Source: a virus | Virus record (IMG/VR): IMGVR_UViG_3300010354_000021 | Span: 1-33,188 of that record | Reading direction: 5' to 3' (one strand) | DNA length: 33,188 nucleotides | Shown here: piece by piece, positions 11,141 to 33,188 of the stretch | Layout of the letters: every line of letters starts with the position of its first letter | How positions within the stretch are numbered: position 1 is the stretch's first letter | Program-made: the position numbers and the translations under genes | Notes under the pieces: generated by a model | Told to the model about the DNA's origin: nothing | The model's input: the letters and a program-made list of their open reading frames with translations, nothing else | The model's database searches: none

Positions 11141-11674
11141 ATGGCTTGTAATATGACTGCCGGATATAATGACAGAACTTGTACCAATGGAAAAGGTGGT
11201 ATCAAGTCAGTGTTGTTGTTTCCATTAGGCAATGTAACTGGCAGCAATGTCACAGCAACAAATGAAGTTGACTCTTTGACTGTATCTGGTGAAGTGTTTT
11301 TATATAAGTTGAAATCAAACTTATCAAGTTACACTGCACCAATTCGAGTGAACAAAGGAAATGGTACACTTTGGTATGAACAAACTTTGACAATGATCTT
11401 AGCATCAGACACAAAGGAGTTGAGATCAGAGATCCATTTGCTTGGACAGAATGAAGTAGTTGCTCTTGTTGAGAAAGCTGATGGTACTGTTGTTGCTCTT
11501 GGATTTGGTGAAGGCCTTCAGATTGCTGAGGCATCTGCATATGGATCTGGAGTATTGAAGTCTGACAGATTAGGACATGATATCATCTTAGGTGGATTAG
11601 AAAATGATCCAGTGCCAGATGTTGATCCAGCTGTTTATGCTTCTTTATTAGCACAACAATCTCCATCAATTTAA
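11141..11674 (+). CDS. Major tail tube protein candidate
   Basis: A 177-residue beta-rich protein bounded by strong hairpins on both sides, as fits a highly expressed structural gene. Its pattern, with a Cys/Gly-rich N-terminus, 'GGIKSVLLFPLGN', 'SSYTAPIRVNKGNGTLWYEQTL', 'TKELRSEIHLLGQNEVVALVEKADG' and 'GFGEGLQIAEASAYGSGV', corresponds to tail tube proteins of Bacteroidota siphophages as I know them. It would polymerise into the tail tube around the tape measure protein. It directly follows the capsid gene, with portal and connectors after it. No other gene in the genome is a better tube candidate. A capsid-decorating role is the alternative. Confidence 0.55.
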   Translation: MACNMTAGYNDRTCTNGKGGIKSVLLFPLGNVTGSNVTATNEVDSLTVSGEVFLYKLKSNLSSYTAPIRVNKGNGTLWYEQTLTMILASDTKELRSEIHLLGQNEVVALVEKADGTVVALGFGEGLQIAEASAYGSGVLKSDRLGHDIILGGLENDPVPDVDPAVYASLLAQQSPSI

Positions 11675-20173: not shown

Positions 20174-20204
20174 TTTGGAGAATAAAAAAAAATCTTTATA
20201 TTTG
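20174..20204 (+). promoter_or_regulatory. Promoter for the replication genes (TTTG-N19-TATATTTG)
   Basis: TTTG at 20174-20177 and TATATTTG at 20197-20204 are separated by 19 bp, an excellent match to the Bacteroidota promoter (-33 TTTG, -7 TAnnTTTG). It lies just after the last TGTCATG repeat and leaves a leader of about 80 bases before the primase-helicase start. Confidence 0.7.
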
Positions 20205-20290: not shown

Positions 20291-22636
20291 ATGAAAATAT
20301 CAGTATTCAAATCGTTATTTAACACCAAAGAGACTGCCTATTCTCTGACCATTCCTGAAGTGGTCGCAAGGATTCAAAATGGTACACCAGATCTCAAAAA
20401 AAAGATTGAGATTATTAGGACCATGAGCAAAGGTCAAAAAGAATATGACCAAGCAAAAAAGGAACTTTATGCAATCATGTTCAATGGTACATTCTCAGAA
20501 AGGAGTGCAAATGGATTGATTGAACATTCAGGACTTTGTATCCTTGATTTTGATGGATATCCATCTGATGATATCATGAAAGTTGAGAGACAAAGATTGA
20601 TTAATGATCCTTATGTGATTATTGTATTCACATCACCTGGAGGCAAAGGACTCAAGGCAGTGATTAGAATACCAAAATCAAATGCATCAGAACATAAAAG
20701 AAGATTCTTAGCTTATGCTGATTATTTCAAGTCAGATTATTTTGATACTAAGAATCAAGATGTCTCAAGAGTTTGTTTTGAGTCTTATGATCCAGATATA
20801 TATTACAATGAATTCTGTCAAGTATTTGAAGGAATTACAGAGGATAAAGGATTTCAGTATATTGAAAGAGCTCCAGTATGTATTCTTAATGATGAAGCTA
20901 AGAAAATAGAACTTATTGAGAAATTTCAATTTAAACATTCATTCACCGATGGAAGTCGCAATCAGTTTATCTTTGAGATAGCTTGTTGTTTCTGTGATTA
21001 TGGTATATCTCAAGATATTACAGAGCATCATCTGTCATCAAAGTATCCATCAAGTCCAGACTTTACTCACAATGAGATGTTGAGTGCAATCAAATCAGCA
21101 TACAGGAAGAGTCAATTCAGCTCAAAATACTTTGAGGATAGATCAACCATTGAAAGAGTCAAGCTCAAGCTTAAGAATGGAGTTAATGAGGATGAGATAA
21201 AAAAGCAACACAATATCTCAGATGATATTCTCAATGACATTAAGGACAATGCAACCAATTCTGATGATGTATTCTGGACAATAGTCAAAAAAAAAGATAG
21301 TGAAGTTGTAATCATTGAGCCATTGAAATATGCTCAATTCTTGGTTAAGAATGGATTCAATAAATTCTATCCAGAGAATGCTGAGAAACCAACATTTGTC
21401 AGAGTGATTGAGAATAAGGTCAAGCTTTCATCTGTGGACCAGATTAAAGATTTTGTTTTGACATATCTAATTGAGAAAGGTCATATCAATGTATGGAACT
21501 TTTGTTCTAAGTCAACTTATCTGTTCTCAGAGAATCATCTTAACATGATTGATTCAATCTATTTAAAGATGTTGCAAGATACTGAGACAGAAAGTTATAT
21601 TCCTTTCAAGAATGGTGTGATTAAAGTTACAAAGGATTGTACTGGACTTTTGAGCTATATTGATGTGGATGGTTATATCTGGGAGAATCAGATAATTGAC
21701 AGAGAATTTCATCTTTGTATTGACTTTCATAATGATTTCAGAGACCTGGTCCATAAGGTAAGCAATGGAGATCATAAGAGAATTGCAAGTCTTGAGTCAA
21801 CTCTTGGATACTTAATGCATTCATACAAGGATAAGACTAATCAGAAAGCAATCATATTTAATGACCAGGAGATTGATGATAATCCAAATGGAGGGAGTGG
21901 TAAGTCATTGATGTTGACAGCTCTTGGATATCTCAGAAAGACAGTGAAGATTGATGGTAAGTCATTCAATCCAAGTAAATCTGATTTTGTTTATCAAAGA
22001 GTCAATCTTGATACTCAGATTCTGGCATTTGATGATGTTAAAAAGAACTTTGATTTTGAGCAACTATTTATGATTGTCTCTGAAGGAATCACAGTTAACC
22101 GAAAGAATAAGGATGAGATATTCATTCCATTTAATAGATCACCAAAGATTGTCATCACAACCAATTATGTGATATCAGGAGCTGGAGGATCACATGATCG
22201 GAGAAGGCATGAGATTGAATTCTTTCAATATTTCAATGCGACAAATTCACCTTTAAAAGAATATGGGAAGCTATTGTTTGACCAATGGTCACAAGATGAC
22301 TGGTCAAAGTTTGACAACTACATGATTAAGAACTTGCAAATGTTTTTGAGAAATGGATTGACAAACACAATAAGCATCAATGCAGAGGCCAAGAGATTCA
22401 TCCAGGCGACAAGCAAGGATTTCTTTGATTTCGTATCTGATAATCCTTTGCTCCTGGATGTTTATTATTTCAATACAGAATTACTTAATCAATTCCAGAA
22501 TGAATACAATGGATATAAGGAAATAAATCCACAAAGATTCTCTAAATGGATTGCAGAGTATGGAAAATATAAAGGTTGGATCATGGAGAAAGGCAGAAAT
22601 AATAAAGGCAGATATATAACATTTAAGAATAAATAA
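20291..22636 (+). CDS. Primase-helicase (BT4734/VirE-N-like primase domain plus SF3-like helicase)
   Basis: A 781-residue replication protein. The N-terminal region resembles the BT4734/VirE N-terminal primase-like domain: 'HSGLCILDFDGYP' with the Asp pair D86/D88, and 'VIIVFTSPGGKGLKAVIRIP' (T114-G120). The C-terminal region is a superfamily-3-like helicase ATPase: Walker A 'NPNGGSGKS' (531-539), Walker B-like 'ILAFDDV' (577-583), a motif C-like 'PKIVITTNYV', and an arginine-rich 'GGSHDRRRHEIEF'. It would unwind DNA and prime replication. It has its own promoter and structured leader. The ATG at 20291 follows an A-rich context. The two-domain architecture is common in mobile elements and phages of Bacteroidota. 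Confidence 0.8.
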   Translation: MKISVFKSLFNTKETAYSLTIPEVVARIQNGTPDLKKKIEIIRTMSKGQKEYDQAKKELYAIMFNGTFSERSANGLIEHSGLCILDFDGYPSDDIMKVERQRLINDPYVIIVFTSPGGKGLKAVIRIPKSNASEHKRRFLAYADYFKSDYFDTKNQDVSRVCFESYDPDIYYNEFCQVFEGITEDKGFQYIERAPVCILNDEAKKIELIEKFQFKHSFTDGSRNQFIFEIACCFCDYGISQDITEHHLSSKYPSSPDFTHNEMLSAIKSAYRKSQFSSKYFEDRSTIERVKLKLKNGVNEDEIKKQHNISDDILNDIKDNATNSDDVFWTIVKKKDSEVVIIEPLKYAQFLVKNGFNKFYPENAEKPTFVRVIENKVKLSSVDQIKDFVLTYLIEKGHINVWNFCSKSTYLFSENHLNMIDSIYLKMLQDTETESYIPFKNGVIKVTKDCTGLLSYIDVDGYIWENQIIDREFHLCIDFHNDFRDLVHKVSNGDHKRIASLESTLGYLMHSYKDKTNQKAIIFNDQEIDDNPNGGSGKSLMLTALGYLRKTVKIDGKSFNPSKSDFVYQRVNLDTQILAFDDVKKNFDFEQLFMIVSEGITVNRKNKDEIFIPFNRSPKIVITTNYVISGAGGSHDRRRHEIEFFQYFNATNSPLKEYGKLLFDQWSQDDWSKFDNYMIKNLQMFLRNGLTNTISINAEAKRFIQATSKDFFDFVSDNPLLLDVYYFNTELLNQFQNEYNGYKEINPQRFSKWIAEYGKYKGWIMEKGRNNKGRYITFKNK

Positions 22637-27279: not shown

Positions 27280-28016
27280 TGCAAGCACATATATCAGAAT
27301 CACTTGCTGGCCTTGACAAAGGACTCATTGAAAAATTCAATTTAACACCATACCAGGTTGCAACTTGGGACACTGTATTCATGGGGATGTACAGAGAAGA
27401 GGACTTGACTACTCTTGCAACACATCTCGGAGCCAGCACAATTGTCTGGTTTGGCTCAGATGCCAAAGACCTTCCAGAGGATTGGATTAAGTTCATGAAG
27501 GACTCAGTCAACATTGCAGTCAGTCATCAAGTCCTTGAGACTCTTGCATCCAAAGGCATTGAGTCAATATGGTGTCCTATCAATGCTGTCATTCCTCATC
27601 ACTGGCCATTGCTGCCTAATGGTGACAAGATATTCTGGTATTCTGGAAATGCTCCAGAGTATTATGGTCAAGACCTTATCAACGAAATAAAAGAACGTAT
27701 CAACATTCCTATCATCAGAGCTGGTCATGATACATTCAGCAAAGAGGAATTGGTTGATGTTTACTCTCAATGCTTTTTGAATCTGAGATTGACTCCTCAT
27801 GATGGCTGTCCGAATACCAACATTGAAATGGGACTAATGGGAAGGCGGTCAATTTACAATGGTGACCTTCCAGCATCTATTCCTTGGGAATCAGTGGATG
27901 ATATTTGTCAATCAATTGCAAGAGAATATGCAACAAGACATGTTGATAATGTGTATATTAGTAAAATTTATCATAATTTTGTTAACTATGAAAGAATGTC
28001 CACGCTGTTTGTTTGA
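27279..28016 (+). CDS. Glycosyltransferase, GT-B-like (group 1)
   Basis: A 245-residue protein. The C-terminal half carries a GT4-like donor-binding pattern: 'FWYSGNAPEYYGQDLINEI', 'PIIRAGHDTFSKEELVDVYSQCFLNLRLTPHDGCPNTNIEMGLMGRRSIYNG', in which the Glu of 'NIEMGLMG' corresponds to the conserved E-x7-E region. It is shorter than typical GT-B enzymes (350 or more), so it is a compact version. Its start overlaps the preceding stop (TAATG) and its end overlaps the amidotransferase start by 29 bp. Confidence 0.7.
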   Translation: MQAHISESLAGLDKGLIEKFNLTPYQVATWDTVFMGMYREEDLTTLATHLGASTIVWFGSDAKDLPEDWIKFMKDSVNIAVSHQVLETLASKGIESIWCPINAVIPHHWPLLPNGDKIFWYSGNAPEYYGQDLINEIKERINIPIIRAGHDTFSKEELVDVYSQCFLNLRLTPHDGCPNTNIEMGLMGRRSIYNGDLPASIPWESVDDICQSIAREYATRHVDNVYISKIYHNFVNYERMSTLFV

Positions 28017-29055
28017 TGAGACCATAGCTGAGATTGGTCCAGAACAATGTGAATACTGTGATCTCCATGATCAATTAGAATTGCAATCTAATCCTCATGA
28101 ATTAAAACATCTGATAAAACAAATCAGAGTCAAAGGTCATGATAAAAAATACGATTGTATCATGGGAATCTCAGGAGGTATTGACTCATCAACTCTCTTA
28201 TATACTGCTGTCAAATATTGGAATCTCAGACCATTGGTGATTCATTTCGACAATCACTGGAATGCTCCAGAGGCAGTTCATAACATGACTCAGTTAGTCA
28301 AGTTACTTGGTGTGGACTCAATCACATATACTGTCAATAAAGAGGAATATGATAGACTGAATGATGCATTCCTTTGGGCTGGTATTCCTGATGCTGATAT
28401 TCCAAACGATATTGCAATGACAAAGCTCATGTATGATACTGCATTCAAGTATGGTATCAAGTACATTCTAAATGGTCATGATTTCAGAACTGAAGGCTCA
28501 ACTCCAAAAGGTTGGACTTATATGGATGCAAAATACATTCAATCAGTTTACAACAAATATTCTGGACTCAGACTCCAGAACTATCCCCTATTCACTTTCA
28601 AGGATCAACTATTCTATGCTGCAATGGGTATCAAGAATGTCAGACCATTTCATTATGGATTTGATAGAGATTCAATGGAGGCTGAAATGAAGAGACTAAT
28701 CAACTGGCAAGATTATGGTGGCAAGCATTGCGAGAATGTATATACTGAGTTTGTTGGATCATTCCTCCTTCCAGAGAAGTTTGGAATTGATAAAAGGATT
28801 GTTTATCTTTCAGCTCAAGTAAGAAGTGGTAAACTAACCAAAGACCAGGCAAGAGAACAATTCAATATCAAGTCTGAATTCGATATCACAAAACTTGGCT
28901 CAAGTGCTGAGAGAATGCTCAGACTGGTCAACATAAGAAAGAGAGACCGATCAGAGTTTGAGAAATATGACTTTAAAAAATATAGAATCATCCTATGGTT
29001 ATTAACCAAGATGAAAGTACTACCATATACATTCTATGTTAAGTATTGTAAATAA
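27988..29055 (+). CDS. N-acetyl sugar amidotransferase (WbpG/PseA-like)
   Basis: A 355-residue protein from ATG 27988 (MKECPRCLFDETI). Cys4, Cys7, Cys21 and Cys24 form a zinc-ribbon-like start. The ATP-pyrophosphatase PP-loop 'MGISGGIDSSTLLY' (SGGIDSS 62-68) and family-typical 'LNGHDFRTEGSTPKGWTYMDAKYI' and 'DYGGKHCENVYTEFVGSFLLPEKFGIDKR' follow. The family converts an acetamido sugar precursor to its amidino form during surface polysaccharide or pseudaminic/legionaminic-type sugar synthesis, usually together with a separate glutaminase, which is absent here. Length is near the family norm. Finding it between phage replication and packaging genes is unusual. A host-derived accessory gene is inferred. 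Confidence 0.8.
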   Translation: MKECPRCLFDETIAEIGPEQCEYCDLHDQLELQSNPHELKHLIKQIRVKGHDKKYDCIMGISGGIDSSTLLYTAVKYWNLRPLVIHFDNHWNAPEAVHNMTQLVKLLGVDSITYTVNKEEYDRLNDAFLWAGIPDADIPNDIAMTKLMYDTAFKYGIKYILNGHDFRTEGSTPKGWTYMDAKYIQSVYNKYSGLRLQNYPLFTFKDQLFYAAMGIKNVRPFHYGFDRDSMEAEMKRLINWQDYGGKHCENVYTEFVGSFLLPEKFGIDKRIVYLSAQVRSGKLTKDQAREQFNIKSEFDITKLGSSAERMLRLVNIRKRDRSEFEKYDFKKYRIILWLLTKMKVLPYTFYVKYCK

Positions 29056-29094: not shown

Positions 29095-29490
29095 ATGGCA
29101 TATAATCAAGAGATAATAGATCAACTTGAGGATCTTGGCTTTGAATATATCCAAGAATGCCTTAATAATAAAAAAGAGATGATCTCTAATAAAGGAGAGA
29201 TTGTACTCGTTTCTGATAGACATATTCCAACTATTGATTACTTTCTTATGATATGGATCCCTATTAAACTTGGAATGAAGTTAATTGATAGGAGGACATG
29301 GTATAGATGGCTTAGAGAAGAGTCTGACAAATGTCACACTATAAAAAACATAGATGGTGAATTCATAGCTCTTGGAAAGAACATTGTGGCCAATGAAGGC
29401 AAGGGTATATTCTATGCTAAGAATAAATTTGGCATGCATGATCGCCAGCAACTCGAGACTAAGAATGTAGAGAAGTTTGACTTTGAATGA
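29095..29490 (+). CDS. terS: Terminase small subunit candidate
   Basis: A 131-residue protein immediately upstream of the large terminase (ATGA overlap), the standard place for the small subunit. 'PTIDYFLMIWIPIKLGMKLIDRRTWYRWLREES' is consistent with the helix-turn-helix DNA-recognition region, and the end 'IFYAKNKFGMHDRQQLETKNVEKFDF' resembles the oligomerisation tail of small terminases in this phage group. It would recognise the pac or cos site and start packaging. Assignment rests on position and pattern. Confidence 0.65.
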   Translation: MAYNQEIIDQLEDLGFEYIQECLNNKKEMISNKGEIVLVSDRHIPTIDYFLMIWIPIKLGMKLIDRRTWYRWLREESDKCHTIKNIDGEFIALGKNIVANEGKGIFYAKNKFGMHDRQQLETKNVEKFDFE

Positions 29491-30689
29491 GTACAGTCAA
29501 AGGTTACAAGCCACATGACAAACAAAGAGAGATTCATGATGCCATCAACCATGGCCATGAAAAATATTATGCTCTGAACATTGGTAGGCAGTTTGGAAAG
29601 ACCTTGCTTGGAATCAACCAACTACTTTGGTGGGCCATCAATGATAAAGGCTGTCGCATAGCATGGGTAACTCCAGTTTATAAGCAAGGAAAGAAAGTCT
29701 TTGCAGATCTTGAGAGGGCAGTTGCCAAGAGTGGATTGTTTACTTTCAACCGATCAGATCTGATGGTCAATGGCTTTGGCTCAACCATTGAATTCTTTTC
29801 AGGTGAGAGACCAGACAATATCCGAGGCAATACTTTTGATTATATGGTAGTGGATGAGATGGCCTTCACAAGACCAGAGTTGTGGGATGAAGTCTTGAGT
29901 GCAACTGTCCTGGTCAAAGGAAAGAAAGTCATCTTCATCTCAACACCAAAAGGCAAGAATCATTTCCATAGGCTTTGTATGCAACCGAACTATGATGATC
30001 GCTATGCTTACTTTCATTATTCATCTTATGACAATCCCATGATTGATCCAAGAGAGTTGGATGAGAGAAAGAGGTCATTGCCTGATCATGTATTCAGGCA
30101 AGAGTATTTGGCAGAGTTCATTGACAATGCCAGTGGTATATTCAAGAATGTTCATCAATGCATAAACACAGGCACCAAGACTGCAAAGATGTATGCTGGC
30201 CTTGACATAGGTAGGGCTGATGACTACACTGTGCTAACTATCCTCAATCAAGATGGACAGATGGTAACTGCTCATAGATGGAGGCATGATGAGTGGAGCA
30301 AGATTATTGAGAAGGTTGCCACTATCATCAAGCAATACAATGCCATTACATTGGTGGAGGTCAACAATCAAGGTGATGTATTCTTTGAGATGCTCCAGTC
30401 AAGATGCAAGAATCTCATCCATCCATTTGTGACAACATCTAAGACCAAGCCAATTATCATTGAGGATCTTGCTGTGGCATTTGAGCAATCAACAATCTCA
30501 ATTGTCAATGAACAATGGTTGATAGATGAGTTGGATAATTTTAGTTATATTTACAATCCAAACACAAGGAATGTAAGTTACTCTGCACCAGCTGGACTCC
30601 ATGATGATGGTGTGATATCCACAGCATTGGCTTGGCATAGCAGAAAGGAATTTGCAAACCGAGGTAGATATATGGCCTTAAGAGTATGA
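29487..30689 (+). CDS. terL: Terminase large subunit
   Basis: A 400-residue packaging motor. ATPase: Walker A 'GRQFGKT' (33-39), Walker B 'MVVDEMA' (120-126), coupling motif 'ISTPKGKN' (151-158). Nuclease: 'AGLDIGRADDYTVL' with Asp240 and nearby acids, and 'HDDGVISTALAW' with Asp373/Asp374, the RNase H-like metal site. Both domains are complete and the length is normal for a compact large terminase. It cuts concatemers and drives DNA into the prohead through the portal. The portal gene is about 15 kb away round the circle rather than adjacent, which is unusual. Confidence 0.9.
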   Translation: MSTVKGYKPHDKQREIHDAINHGHEKYYALNIGRQFGKTLLGINQLLWWAINDKGCRIAWVTPVYKQGKKVFADLERAVAKSGLFTFNRSDLMVNGFGSTIEFFSGERPDNIRGNTFDYMVVDEMAFTRPELWDEVLSATVLVKGKKVIFISTPKGKNHFHRLCMQPNYDDRYAYFHYSSYDNPMIDPRELDERKRSLPDHVFRQEYLAEFIDNASGIFKNVHQCINTGTKTAKMYAGLDIGRADDYTVLTILNQDGQMVTAHRWRHDEWSKIIEKVATIIKQYNAITLVEVNNQGDVFFEMLQSRCKNLIHPFVTTSKTKPIIIEDLAVAFEQSTISIVNEQWLIDELDNFSYIYNPNTRNVSYSAPAGLHDDGVISTALAWHSRKEFANRGRYMALRV

Positions 30690-31396
30690 AACAACTGGAT
30701 ATAAAATTACCAAACTCATTATCATCATGCACACCAGAGCAAATGACCAGGTGGCTTATGATGGCTGAGGCAATGAAGGAGCAAAAGGATGACATCACTC
30801 AGTTGTTGATATTCCAATGTCAGTTGCTCAGTCTATTCAGTGGAGAGTCAATCAATAAGATCAAGAGAGCAGATATTGAATCCATCCAAGTTGCTGCCAA
30901 TCATTTGCTGCAATTGTTGGTAAGTTATAAATACCAGGAGCCAAAGTCTGACATTGAAATTAATGGCAAGGCATATTATTTTGAAAAGAACTTTGCTCAT
31001 GTTTCAACTGGTCAGATTATTGACTTGAAATTGATTGAGGATATCAGCCAAGATCCATGTCAAGCATTAGCAATCATGTATGTTGAGAAAGGCATGGAGT
31101 ATTGCCAAGAGGATGAGAGAGGTAGAGTCTTGAATCCTAATGAGCATAGGTACAAGGAATTCAAAGATCACTTTCCTGGAGATGAGTTTTTGAACTTTTT
31201 CAGTTTTTTTTTAGACTTATCGGAGAAGCGGAGGCTCGCTATATTAGGCATACAGATGGCGAGGCAGAGGATGGAAATGATGATGATGGAGCAGGACTTA
31301 AAGATTCAGAGTGGTTTAGTTGGACCACTATCATCCATAGACTATCCAAAGAAATGGGAGTCAGTGTGGAAAAGATTACACAACAGCCTTATGTGA
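30686..31396 (+). CDS. Tail assembly chaperone-like protein, short (zero-frame) form
   Basis: A 236-residue product read without frameshifting. The N-terminal 176 residues are well-behaved protein ('LSSCTPEQMTRWLMMAEAMKEQ', 'IEINGKAYYFEKNFAHVSTGQIIDL'). After residue 176 the frame is Met/Arg-rich ('MARQRMEMMMMEQ'), less convincing than the alternative -1 frame. Position between terminase and tail genes, together with the slippery site, suggests the gpG role of a G/GT pair that coats the tape measure before tail assembly. It overlaps terL by 4 bp. Confidence 0.55.
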   Translation: MKQLDIKLPNSLSSCTPEQMTRWLMMAEAMKEQKDDITQLLIFQCQLLSLFSGESINKIKRADIESIQVAANHLLQLLVSYKYQEPKSDIEINGKAYYFEKNFAHVSTGQIIDLKLIEDISQDPCQALAIMYVEKGMEYCQEDERGRVLNPNEHRYKEFKDHFPGDEFLNFFSFFLDLSEKRRLAILGIQMARQRMEMMMMEQDLKIQSGLVGPLSSIDYPKKWESVWKRLHNSLM

Positions 31397-31476
31397 CCAC
31401 ATTGTTCTGGATGAACTATTTTAGGATAGTTGATGAGAACGAACAAAAACGTATATTAAGTAATGGCAGACTTTGA
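30686..31476 (+). CDS. Tail assembly chaperone-like protein, -1 frameshift form
   Basis: Slipping back one base on UUUUUUA (31207-31213) joins residue 176 to an 87-residue extension in the -1 frame. It contains 'SEWFSWTTIIHRLSKEMGVS', 'YVTTLFWMNYFRIVDE' and ends 'KRILSNGRL' at TGA 31474-31476, 263 residues in all. The extension is strongly protein-like, has no start codon of its own near the junction, and overlaps the next gene by 14 bp, whereas the zero-frame stop leaves a 66-bp gap. Programmed -1 shifting that produces gpG and gpG-T products is known for siphophage tail chaperones. A simple indel or sequencing error is the alternative. Confidence 0.65.
31207..31213 (+). other. Slippery heptamer for -1 frameshift (T TTT TTA)
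   Basis: TTTTTTA in phase with the upstream frame (T, TTT, TTA) inside a nine-T run (31204-31212), the same heptamer used by HIV-1 gag-pol. Thirteen bases downstream is a small stem, AGCG (31227-31230) with CGCT (31237-31240), in an unusually CpG-rich patch for this genome, which might act as stimulator. Confidence 0.65.
31440..31460 (+). promoter_or_regulatory. Repeated upstream motif CGAACAA-N5-TATATTAAG (copy 4)
   Basis: Perfect copy of the motif, ending two bases before the ATG at 31463. It lies inside the end of the -1 frameshift extension (coding Glu-Gln and following). The second half is identical to copy 3 at 29069-29077. Confidence 0.45.
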
Positions 31477-31987: not shown

Positions 31988-33149
31988 TGAGCCACAACTG
32001 ATTGCACCAGCTGGCAATCCATTAGTGTTCACATTCAGCAGCAATCAGACTGCACAACCCAATTTCAGTTTTGTTGTTGAGGTTTATATTGATAGCACAT
32101 TGAGATTGACTCAAGAGGTGTTTAGACAATTCAATACGCTTGGAAGAATAGATGTATCTGAGGCAGTTCAAAGTGCAATAAGAAATCCAGAGATCACAAC
32201 TGATCTTGAGTTTGATGCCACCAATTCAATGGTCACTTATGCTATCATTGTCTATGAAAAGTATGGATCAACTCCGACAATTCAAGCCAGTGATACAAGC
32301 ACAACATTAAAAGCATTCAATGCAGCTCTTGAATATCCACAGTGGAGAGTGTTTGATTATGAGATATATGATCCTAATTTAACACAGGATGCAGTATTCT
32401 TAACTAACTTTCCAACAACATCCAGAGCTTTGTGTGGAATGGATGAGAATTTTTATCTTGGATATTTTGAGCAGAGTGGGGGTGCTATATGTGATTTCAA
32501 TGTGTATTTATTAGATATCCAAGGTAATACAATTGCAAGTGACTCATATACTTTAACATCAACAGAATTCAATATCTTGAATGTTGGTCCACAGGTCATC
32601 ATTGCAAATACATCTATAAATCAGAATGATTTTGATGATTGTTTTAAATATGAAGTATCTGTGTCTGTGCAAGGAGTTTCATTTGTTGGACCCTTCACAA
32701 TATACATGGACCTTGATTGCAAGAGATATACAACTCATAGATTGCATTGGTTGAATAAACTTGGATCATGGGATTCATTTACCTTTGCATTGGTCTCAAC
32801 CGAATCAGCAACAGTACAGGCATTTGACTATCAAAGAGATCCTGGAGTGTGGGATAATACAAGTTACACATATCCTCTTTACTCTGGACAAAAGATTCAT
32901 TTTGCCAAGACAAAGACTGAGCAATTGATTTTGAATTCAGATTGGATATCAGAGGCAGTTCAGAATTGGTTGGTTGAATCTTTATTTGATTCTCCTTTGG
33001 TTTATCTTGAGCAAAATAATGGAACTGAATTTGAGCCAGTTAAAGTGACCAATTCAAACTATCAACTCAAGACCAGGAGAAGAGATGGCTTGATGCAAGA
33101 GCAAGTTACAATTGAAAGAACATACACATATAGATCACAACTTAACTAA
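31968..33149 (+). CDS. Tail-tip / distal tail protein
   Basis: A 393-residue protein from ATG 31968 (MAVTIYDEPQLIAPAGNPLVF), preferred over the upstream in-frame ATG at 31947 because the 'MAVTIYxEPQ..PAxNPLVF' N-terminus is characteristic of a tail-protein family in Bacteroidota phages. It is beta-rich throughout, with 'FKYEVSVSVQGVSFVGPFTIYMDLDCKRYTTHRLHWLNKLGSWDSFTF' as the most conserved-looking part, and lacks transmembrane segments. It probably forms the distal tail or baseplate with the 801-residue protein that follows across the circular junction (TAATG overlap). The gene's last 84 bases are repeated at the left end of the window. Confidence 0.65.
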   Translation: MAVTIYDEPQLIAPAGNPLVFTFSSNQTAQPNFSFVVEVYIDSTLRLTQEVFRQFNTLGRIDVSEAVQSAIRNPEITTDLEFDATNSMVTYAIIVYEKYGSTPTIQASDTSTTLKAFNAALEYPQWRVFDYEIYDPNLTQDAVFLTNFPTTSRALCGMDENFYLGYFEQSGGAICDFNVYLLDIQGNTIASDSYTLTSTEFNILNVGPQVIIANTSINQNDFDDCFKYEVSVSVQGVSFVGPFTIYMDLDCKRYTTHRLHWLNKLGSWDSFTFALVSTESATVQAFDYQRDPGVWDNTSYTYPLYSGQKIHFAKTKTEQLILNSDWISEAVQNWLVESLFDSPLVYLEQNNGTEFEPVKVTNSNYQLKTRRRDGLMQEQVTIERTYTYRSQLN

Positions 33150-33188
33150 TGGCTGGAGAACTATTCATTAATGGGAGGCTGGTTGATA
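33066..33188. repeat. Terminal direct repeat, right copy
   Basis: Identical to 1-123. It closes the circular genome and should be counted once. The reading frames of both genes spanning it continue without change across the join. Confidence 0.95.
33149..33188 (+). CDS. 5' start of large tail-tip protein (partial, duplicate of 84-123)
   Basis: The first 13 codons of the 801-residue tail protein annotated at 84-2489, duplicated by the terminal redundancy and cut by the window end. It is not a separate gene. Confidence 0.95.
   Translation, partial: MAGELFINGRLVD

Follow-up and report, generated by a model that had tools for sequence, protein, structure and literature searches.

Comparison of relatives strongly supports programmed recoding into the -1 frame at a run of nine Ts (T9) in a viral gene that lies directly downstream of the terminase. 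In the explanation that we prefer, the one gene would give two proteins sharing ~176 residues: standard expression would produce the 236-aa form, and a net -1 shift at the T9 run, in a minority of messages or ribosomes, would lead to a form of ~263 aa whose C-terminal domain differs. The preferred route is that the RNA polymerase slips on the nine Ts and adds a single U to some of the transcripts, which brings the -1 frame in phase; the short form would then act as the bulk tail-assembly chaperone, like lambda gpG, and the long form, like gpGT, would carry a domain contacting another tail protein. We give this whole explanation, two products made via polymerase slippage and acting like lambda gpG and gpGT, a probability of about 0.5; it builds on a site, a selection on both frames and a frozen run that were established by comparison, from which we infer the recoding, the transcriptional route and the chaperone role.

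The window, by which we mean the whole analysed stretch of 33,188 nucleotides (IMG/VR record IMGVR_UViG_3300010354_000021), is probably a complete genome closing as a circle of 33,065 bp; an identical direct repeat stands at its two ends (Table 1), and with circular closure the genes past position 33188 run on at the start of the window. The gene following the recoded one had no match of its own to PHROG or Pfam profiles, and the 881-aa putative tape measure had no PHROG 58 match and no family match in support. Two further genes attracted our attention: a 177-aa protein (11141-11674) that looks tail-tube-like by eye and belongs to PHROG 19091, a family of unknown function, and the gene at 27859-29055, which is PP-loop ATPase-like (PAPS reductase or NAD synthase-like), with Pfam matches below the curated cut-offs.

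Table 1. Features of the window bearing on the recoded gene
Feature	Position	Strand	Basis or remark
Terminase large subunit, directly upstream	29487-30689	+	PHROG 2, E 2.6e-45; Pfam Terminase_6N, E 1.6e-17
Zero-frame gene, 236 aa	30686-31396	+	ORF list; homologs aligned
T9 recoding run	31204-31212	+	A at 31213; length 9 or 10 in 287/287 distinct homologous sequences
-1 frame extension, 87 codons + stop	31213-31476	+	Conserved protein in alignment
60-codon stretch coding protein in both frames	31214-31393	+	Substitution pattern by codon position
Next gene, 174 aa	31463-31987	+	Likely neck/tail-completion (gp10-like) by position
Probable tape-measure protein, 881 aa	5309-7954	+	Inferred: A/K/E/Q/L-rich, hydrophobic segments (composition, hydropathy)
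Direct repeat, identical	1-123 = 33066-33188		Probable circular closure

The zero-frame product consists of the N-terminal domain that would be common to both proteins and a 60-residue C-terminal tail of its own, mostly helical. Across the run, its codons read AGT TTT TTT TTA, and two heptamers stand in the phase required for a shift, U_UUU_UUU (31204-31210) and U_UUU_UUA (31207-31213). The latter had been proposed as a programmed -1 site by the first-pass annotation of this DNA and is indeed found, as T TTT TTA, in the zero-frame gene, where the last six Ts of the T9 run are joined by the A at 31213; the recoding thus proposed is strongly supported, but the heptamer is too narrow a definition of the site, the element shared among relatives being a run of nine or ten Ts with U_UUU_UUU. 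The -1 frame, open already from 27 nt upstream of 31213, was confirmed to continue for 87 codons to a stop codon at 31474-31476, 14 bp into the next gene since the ATG of the latter stands at 31463. Taken alone, the genome provides weak evidence: T9 by itself is not rare (3 in the window vs 2.5 expected by chance) and, given constraint on the zero-frame protein only, the -1 frame would stay open through the 60 overlapping codons with a chance of 0.04 for the whole window. The significance was therefore taken from the relatives.

The gene is a member of a large, almost unannotated family that includes the Nonlabens phages P12024S/L. The model predicted for the zero-frame protein has a pLDDT of 79 and matches uncharacterised phage proteins and a protein of P12024S (BFVD, E 8e-7); the model of the -1 extension alone is poor (pLDDT 64) and had no BFVD match at E ≤ 0.001. 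The Nonlabens phages share with the window a gene directly after the terminase, a T9 run, an open -1 frame and a matching shared domain, but in P12024S the phase of the run is shifted by one codon position, the zero-frame tail has only 24 codons and the locus is annotated as two hypothetical genes. The first of these, gp38, directly follows the terminase and contains T9 and then a -1 frame of 80 codons; the second, gp39 (L232:23663-23830), which stands in the annotation as a hypothetical gene of its own (55 aa), forms the last part of the -1 extension of gp38, a probable two-product gene that current annotation misses. More broadly, the relatives form a window clade and a sister clade, and the codon phase of the run is NNT TTT TTT TTR in the former and NTT TTT TTT TNN in the latter, where mostly TAY or TGG comes after U_UUU_UUU; among 108 distinct window-clade sequences, 94 have G and 14 have A as the base next to the 3' end of the run. 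The shared-domain profiles of the two clades match (hhalign probability 94, E 1e-7); for the extensions, the match is weak (probability 5, E 0.008), so that homology of the extensions between the clades rests on their position and a W..W pattern.

Relatives were collected in several scans. With the -1 extension as query, 104 relatives were found, and in all of the best 80, which were kept, T9 stands directly before the extension. As such a search conditions on the extension, it was repeated with profiles built from the region preceding the run (best 80 of 221 and best 80 of 276, plus one MAG contig from a scan of GTDB genomes); the P12024S gene as query gave 63 further loci, 32 of 64 loci being tabulated, and two sister-clade profiles ending before the run were scanned as well (best 80 of 575 and best 80 of 587), with T9 or T10 as the only run lengths in 80/80 and 78/80 loci, the remaining two being cut. 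The scans share contigs and cover the best 80 each, and remote members without the site are thus possible; in every scan, all loci that reach the site have T9 or T10. Under one common filter, the site is present in 451 of 454 homologous loci. This filter required no motif and took in 12 loci that the motif filter of one tabulation had missed; it admitted runs from seven Ts, so that runs of seven or eight could have appeared. The three loci failing it are L312, L417 and L453, the first of which has T9 and both frames running to the contig end. Among 287 distinct 120-nt sequences, 261 have T9, 26 have T10 and none has a shorter run, and the -1 frame is 80-92 codons long in all 279 distinct sequences that are uncut. 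A tblastn search of the window proteins against the phage collection gave no match.

Homopolymers are error-prone, and one could suspect an assembly error, a pseudogene or a phase-variable repeat. We consider any of these exceedingly improbable: the run has nine or ten Ts in 287 distinct sequences from many samples, T9 is found in the isolate P12024S, both frames are under selection, and T10 comes with an adjacent Phe or Leu codon rather than as a frame-changing insertion. Relatives with a single uninterrupted frame, which the first-pass annotation had named as evidence against recoding, were not found among the homologs examined, nor was a T count that changes the frame.

The comparison of both frames in relatives that had been suggested at the outset points to selection on each. 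The changes are parsimony counts on a FastTree tree, which is the sole handling of phylogenetic non-independence in these numbers, and for the window clade they come from 57 sequences, 6 of the 63 representatives without the 61-codon tail having been dropped. Before the run, this clade has 3.3/1.6/9.6 changes per site at codon positions 1/2/3; in the overlap, the zero-frame numbers become 2.7/4.8/4.7 (p < 1e-5), and after the overlap, the positions of the -1 frame have 2.6/1.5/5.4. The zero-frame second position, raised in the overlap from 1.6 to 4.8, is the third position of the -1 frame. A similar shift is seen in the sister clade (108 sequences), from 12.7/7.6/25.4 before the run to 9.2/13.1/12.7 in the overlap. 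With this pattern, both tails are most likely real proteins. The earlier impression of the -1 frame as convincing protein is borne out by its conservation in the alignment and the selection on it; that of a low-complexity zero-frame tail was wrong, the tail being conserved, exactly 61 codons including the stop in 114 of 120 distinct window-clade sequences, and under selection. Since selection acts on both frames after the run, the zero-frame tail appears to serve as a second C-terminus that is conserved, rather than being left over. Another idea is that the -1 frame would have an internal start of its own and so be a gene by itself, as the annotation of P12024S gp39 as a 55-aa ORF over part of that frame would suggest. 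We find this very improbable: in agreement with the early remark that the frame lacks an early start, there is no ATG, GTG or TTG from the run to codon 39 in the 57 representatives, although the part ahead of codon 40 is conserved; a single representative has a start codon in this frame, well before the run.

The run itself is frozen. All nine T sites have 0 changes in both clades, and the neighbouring positions vary; in the sister clade, there are 16, 0 and 0 changes in the codon before TTT TTT and 0, 9 and 20 in the codon after it, so that exactly the Ts are kept. Outside the run, invariant Phe codons are TTC in 211 of 378 cases, vs 0 of 126 within it. The run length itself thus appears to be under selection, and the evidence is strong but not proof because the outer Ts may be explained by the amino-acid needs of the two frames, namely the second base of a Leu or Phe codon in the -1 frame and a hydrophobic residue before FF.

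What is frozen is thus the T run, with a phase that differs between the clades and a length that hardly does, which speaks for RNA polymerase slippage rather than, or in addition to, ribosomal -1 shifting. The run has at least nine Ts, its length is conserved in homologs and one added nucleotide opens the frame, as expected of a transcriptional slippage site; for Baranov and colleagues, a 9A or 9T run whose length is kept from homolog to homolog is very likely a case of purposeful transcriptional slippage (PMC1088944), and Tn with n > 8 is listed as a transcriptional slippage site elsewhere (PMC3711429). The competing possibility is that ribosomes make the same two products by a -1 shift at U_UUU_UUU (or, for the window clade, U_UUU_UUR), as in lambda G/GT, and we place it only a little below even odds; as mechanism and function are distinct questions, the odds given for the various explanations overlap and do not add up to one. 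The in-phase U_UUU_UUU, found in both clades and in 287/287 distinct sequences, makes such shifting possible, and ribosomal frameshifting is the established mechanism of phage tail chaperones, whose recoding has been reviewed as ribosomal (PMC5009743); its low efficiency would also fit a low GT:G ratio. On the other hand, the constraint spans nine or ten Ts, not seven, with at least nine everywhere, and the codon phase is not the same in the two clades, the extra Ts lying 3' in one clade and being split to both sides in the other. Furthermore, no purine-rich Shine–Dalgarno-like stretch was seen by eye just upstream in the window, and no conserved downstream structure was found: RNAalifold on 25 sequences, covering structures other than pseudoknots, gave 3 pairs, none changed on both sides, and folding of 60-nt windows in 19 sequences gave a strongest mean z of -0.94. 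A downstream hairpin or pseudoknot was considered, as single-sequence folds of the window contain a stem, but was rejected since the stem is not conserved. A terminator at the T run was likewise dismissed; none was found and there is no upstream hairpin signal. Overall, the sequences slightly favour polymerase slippage as the route to the long form.

Two alternative C-termini, from a gene heading the block of tail genes, make a G/GT-like tail-assembly chaperone the most likely role, which we regard as plausible but unproven. Of the features of such chaperones, a C-terminally extended product, made by recoding towards the 3' part of the gene, is supported by the comparative evidence; a position directly before the tape-measure gene is absent, and in this the first-pass annotation was right: eight genes and ~7.2 kb, downstream across the genome closure, separate the recoded gene from the probable tape measure. 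Neither the zero frame, the extension nor the homologs matched the chaperone profiles of Pfam and PHROG. Lying away from the tape measure and having no profile match, the gene is best said to work like a chaperone and is not filed as a member. The likeness to tail chaperones claimed early on stays plausible through the alternative C-termini, the place among tail genes and weak hints from fold searches, but is unproven. As to the fold searches, the zero-frame model had 31 BFVD matches at E ≤ 0.001, none informatively named, and the two functionally named rows among the 50 listed were tail assembly chaperones, weak at E 0.28 and 1.1; there was no chaperone among the structure matches listed for PDB. 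Some other hits were set aside: PHROG 166 'tail protein' (5/20 sister-clade members, best E 0.005; in the genome search 5/10 records, partial profile matches scoring no more than 12.3 bits) was judged not significant, and the matches of the zero-frame profile in PDB sequences, to repeat modules in unrelated proteins, including toxin repeats (E 4e-5 and worse, over the short segment of residues ~89-144), were judged chance. Flavobacterium phage 6H gp10 (L233), a weak structural match in BFVD, showed no T9 by eye; its region has an unannotated, protein-like -1 frame downstream.

The two C-termini could also be made for a role in packaging or head–tail joining rather than for tail chaperoning, which we think rather unlikely. 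Besides the missing chaperone profile match, the closeness to the terminase speaks for it: among 293 loci examined, 283 have a terminase match, and in 270 of these, the run lies at most 800 nt downstream of it. Against it, alternative C-termini by -1 recoding are a hallmark of tail chaperones (PMC5009743), and the downstream gp42 of P12024S matches a neck/tail-completion family (PHROG 5, E 4e-4), a gene that the sister clade's next-but-one gene resembles by eye; P12024S gp49 has a weak tape-measure match.

A chaperone-like gene of this kind would resemble lambda G/GT in being one gene whose two products share an N-terminus via a -1 shift, and in its occurrence together with a probable tape measure. 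It differs in sitting between the terminase and the tail genes, ~7 kb from that tape measure, in the absence of a profile match, and in having a T run for its site; the lambda slippery site is G_GGA_AAG. The 60-codon dual-coding overlap also contrasts with the SEA-PHAGES training set, where the in-frame stop came on average 26 nt after the slippery site (PMC10885494). In its homopolymer run leading to two products, the gene is like the 9A/9T slippage genes, Thermus dnaX with its A9, Shigella mxiE and some IS elements (PMC1088944, PMC3711429, PMC5009743), but those are cellular or IS genes, not tail chaperones. Among phages, the tape-measure protein of an Acinetobacter prophage is mentioned in passing as apparently made through transcriptional slippage (PMC6095929); by title or abstract, we found no paper in the open literature searched on the T9 site or on a transcriptional-slippage tail chaperone. 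We tentatively suggest, at somewhat less than even odds, that, in a very large group of Nonlabens phage relatives, the tail-chaperone pair is made by RNA polymerase slippage on T9/T10, with the two alternative C-termini in overlapping frames, instead of by the ribosomal frameshift of lambda. If so, the two-product tail chaperone, widespread in long-tailed phages, would have an unrecognised form in a common lineage, placed elsewhere in the genome and with another, perhaps transcriptional, recoding site; by comparison within the group, one could then cleanly ask which kind of slippage, that of the polymerase or that of the ribosome, a homopolymer is selected for. As a separate observation, the window contains an A9 run on the + strand at 21287-21295, within a 781-aa gene (20291-22636, PHROG 28855), as another possible slippage site, and a second A9 at 20184-20192.
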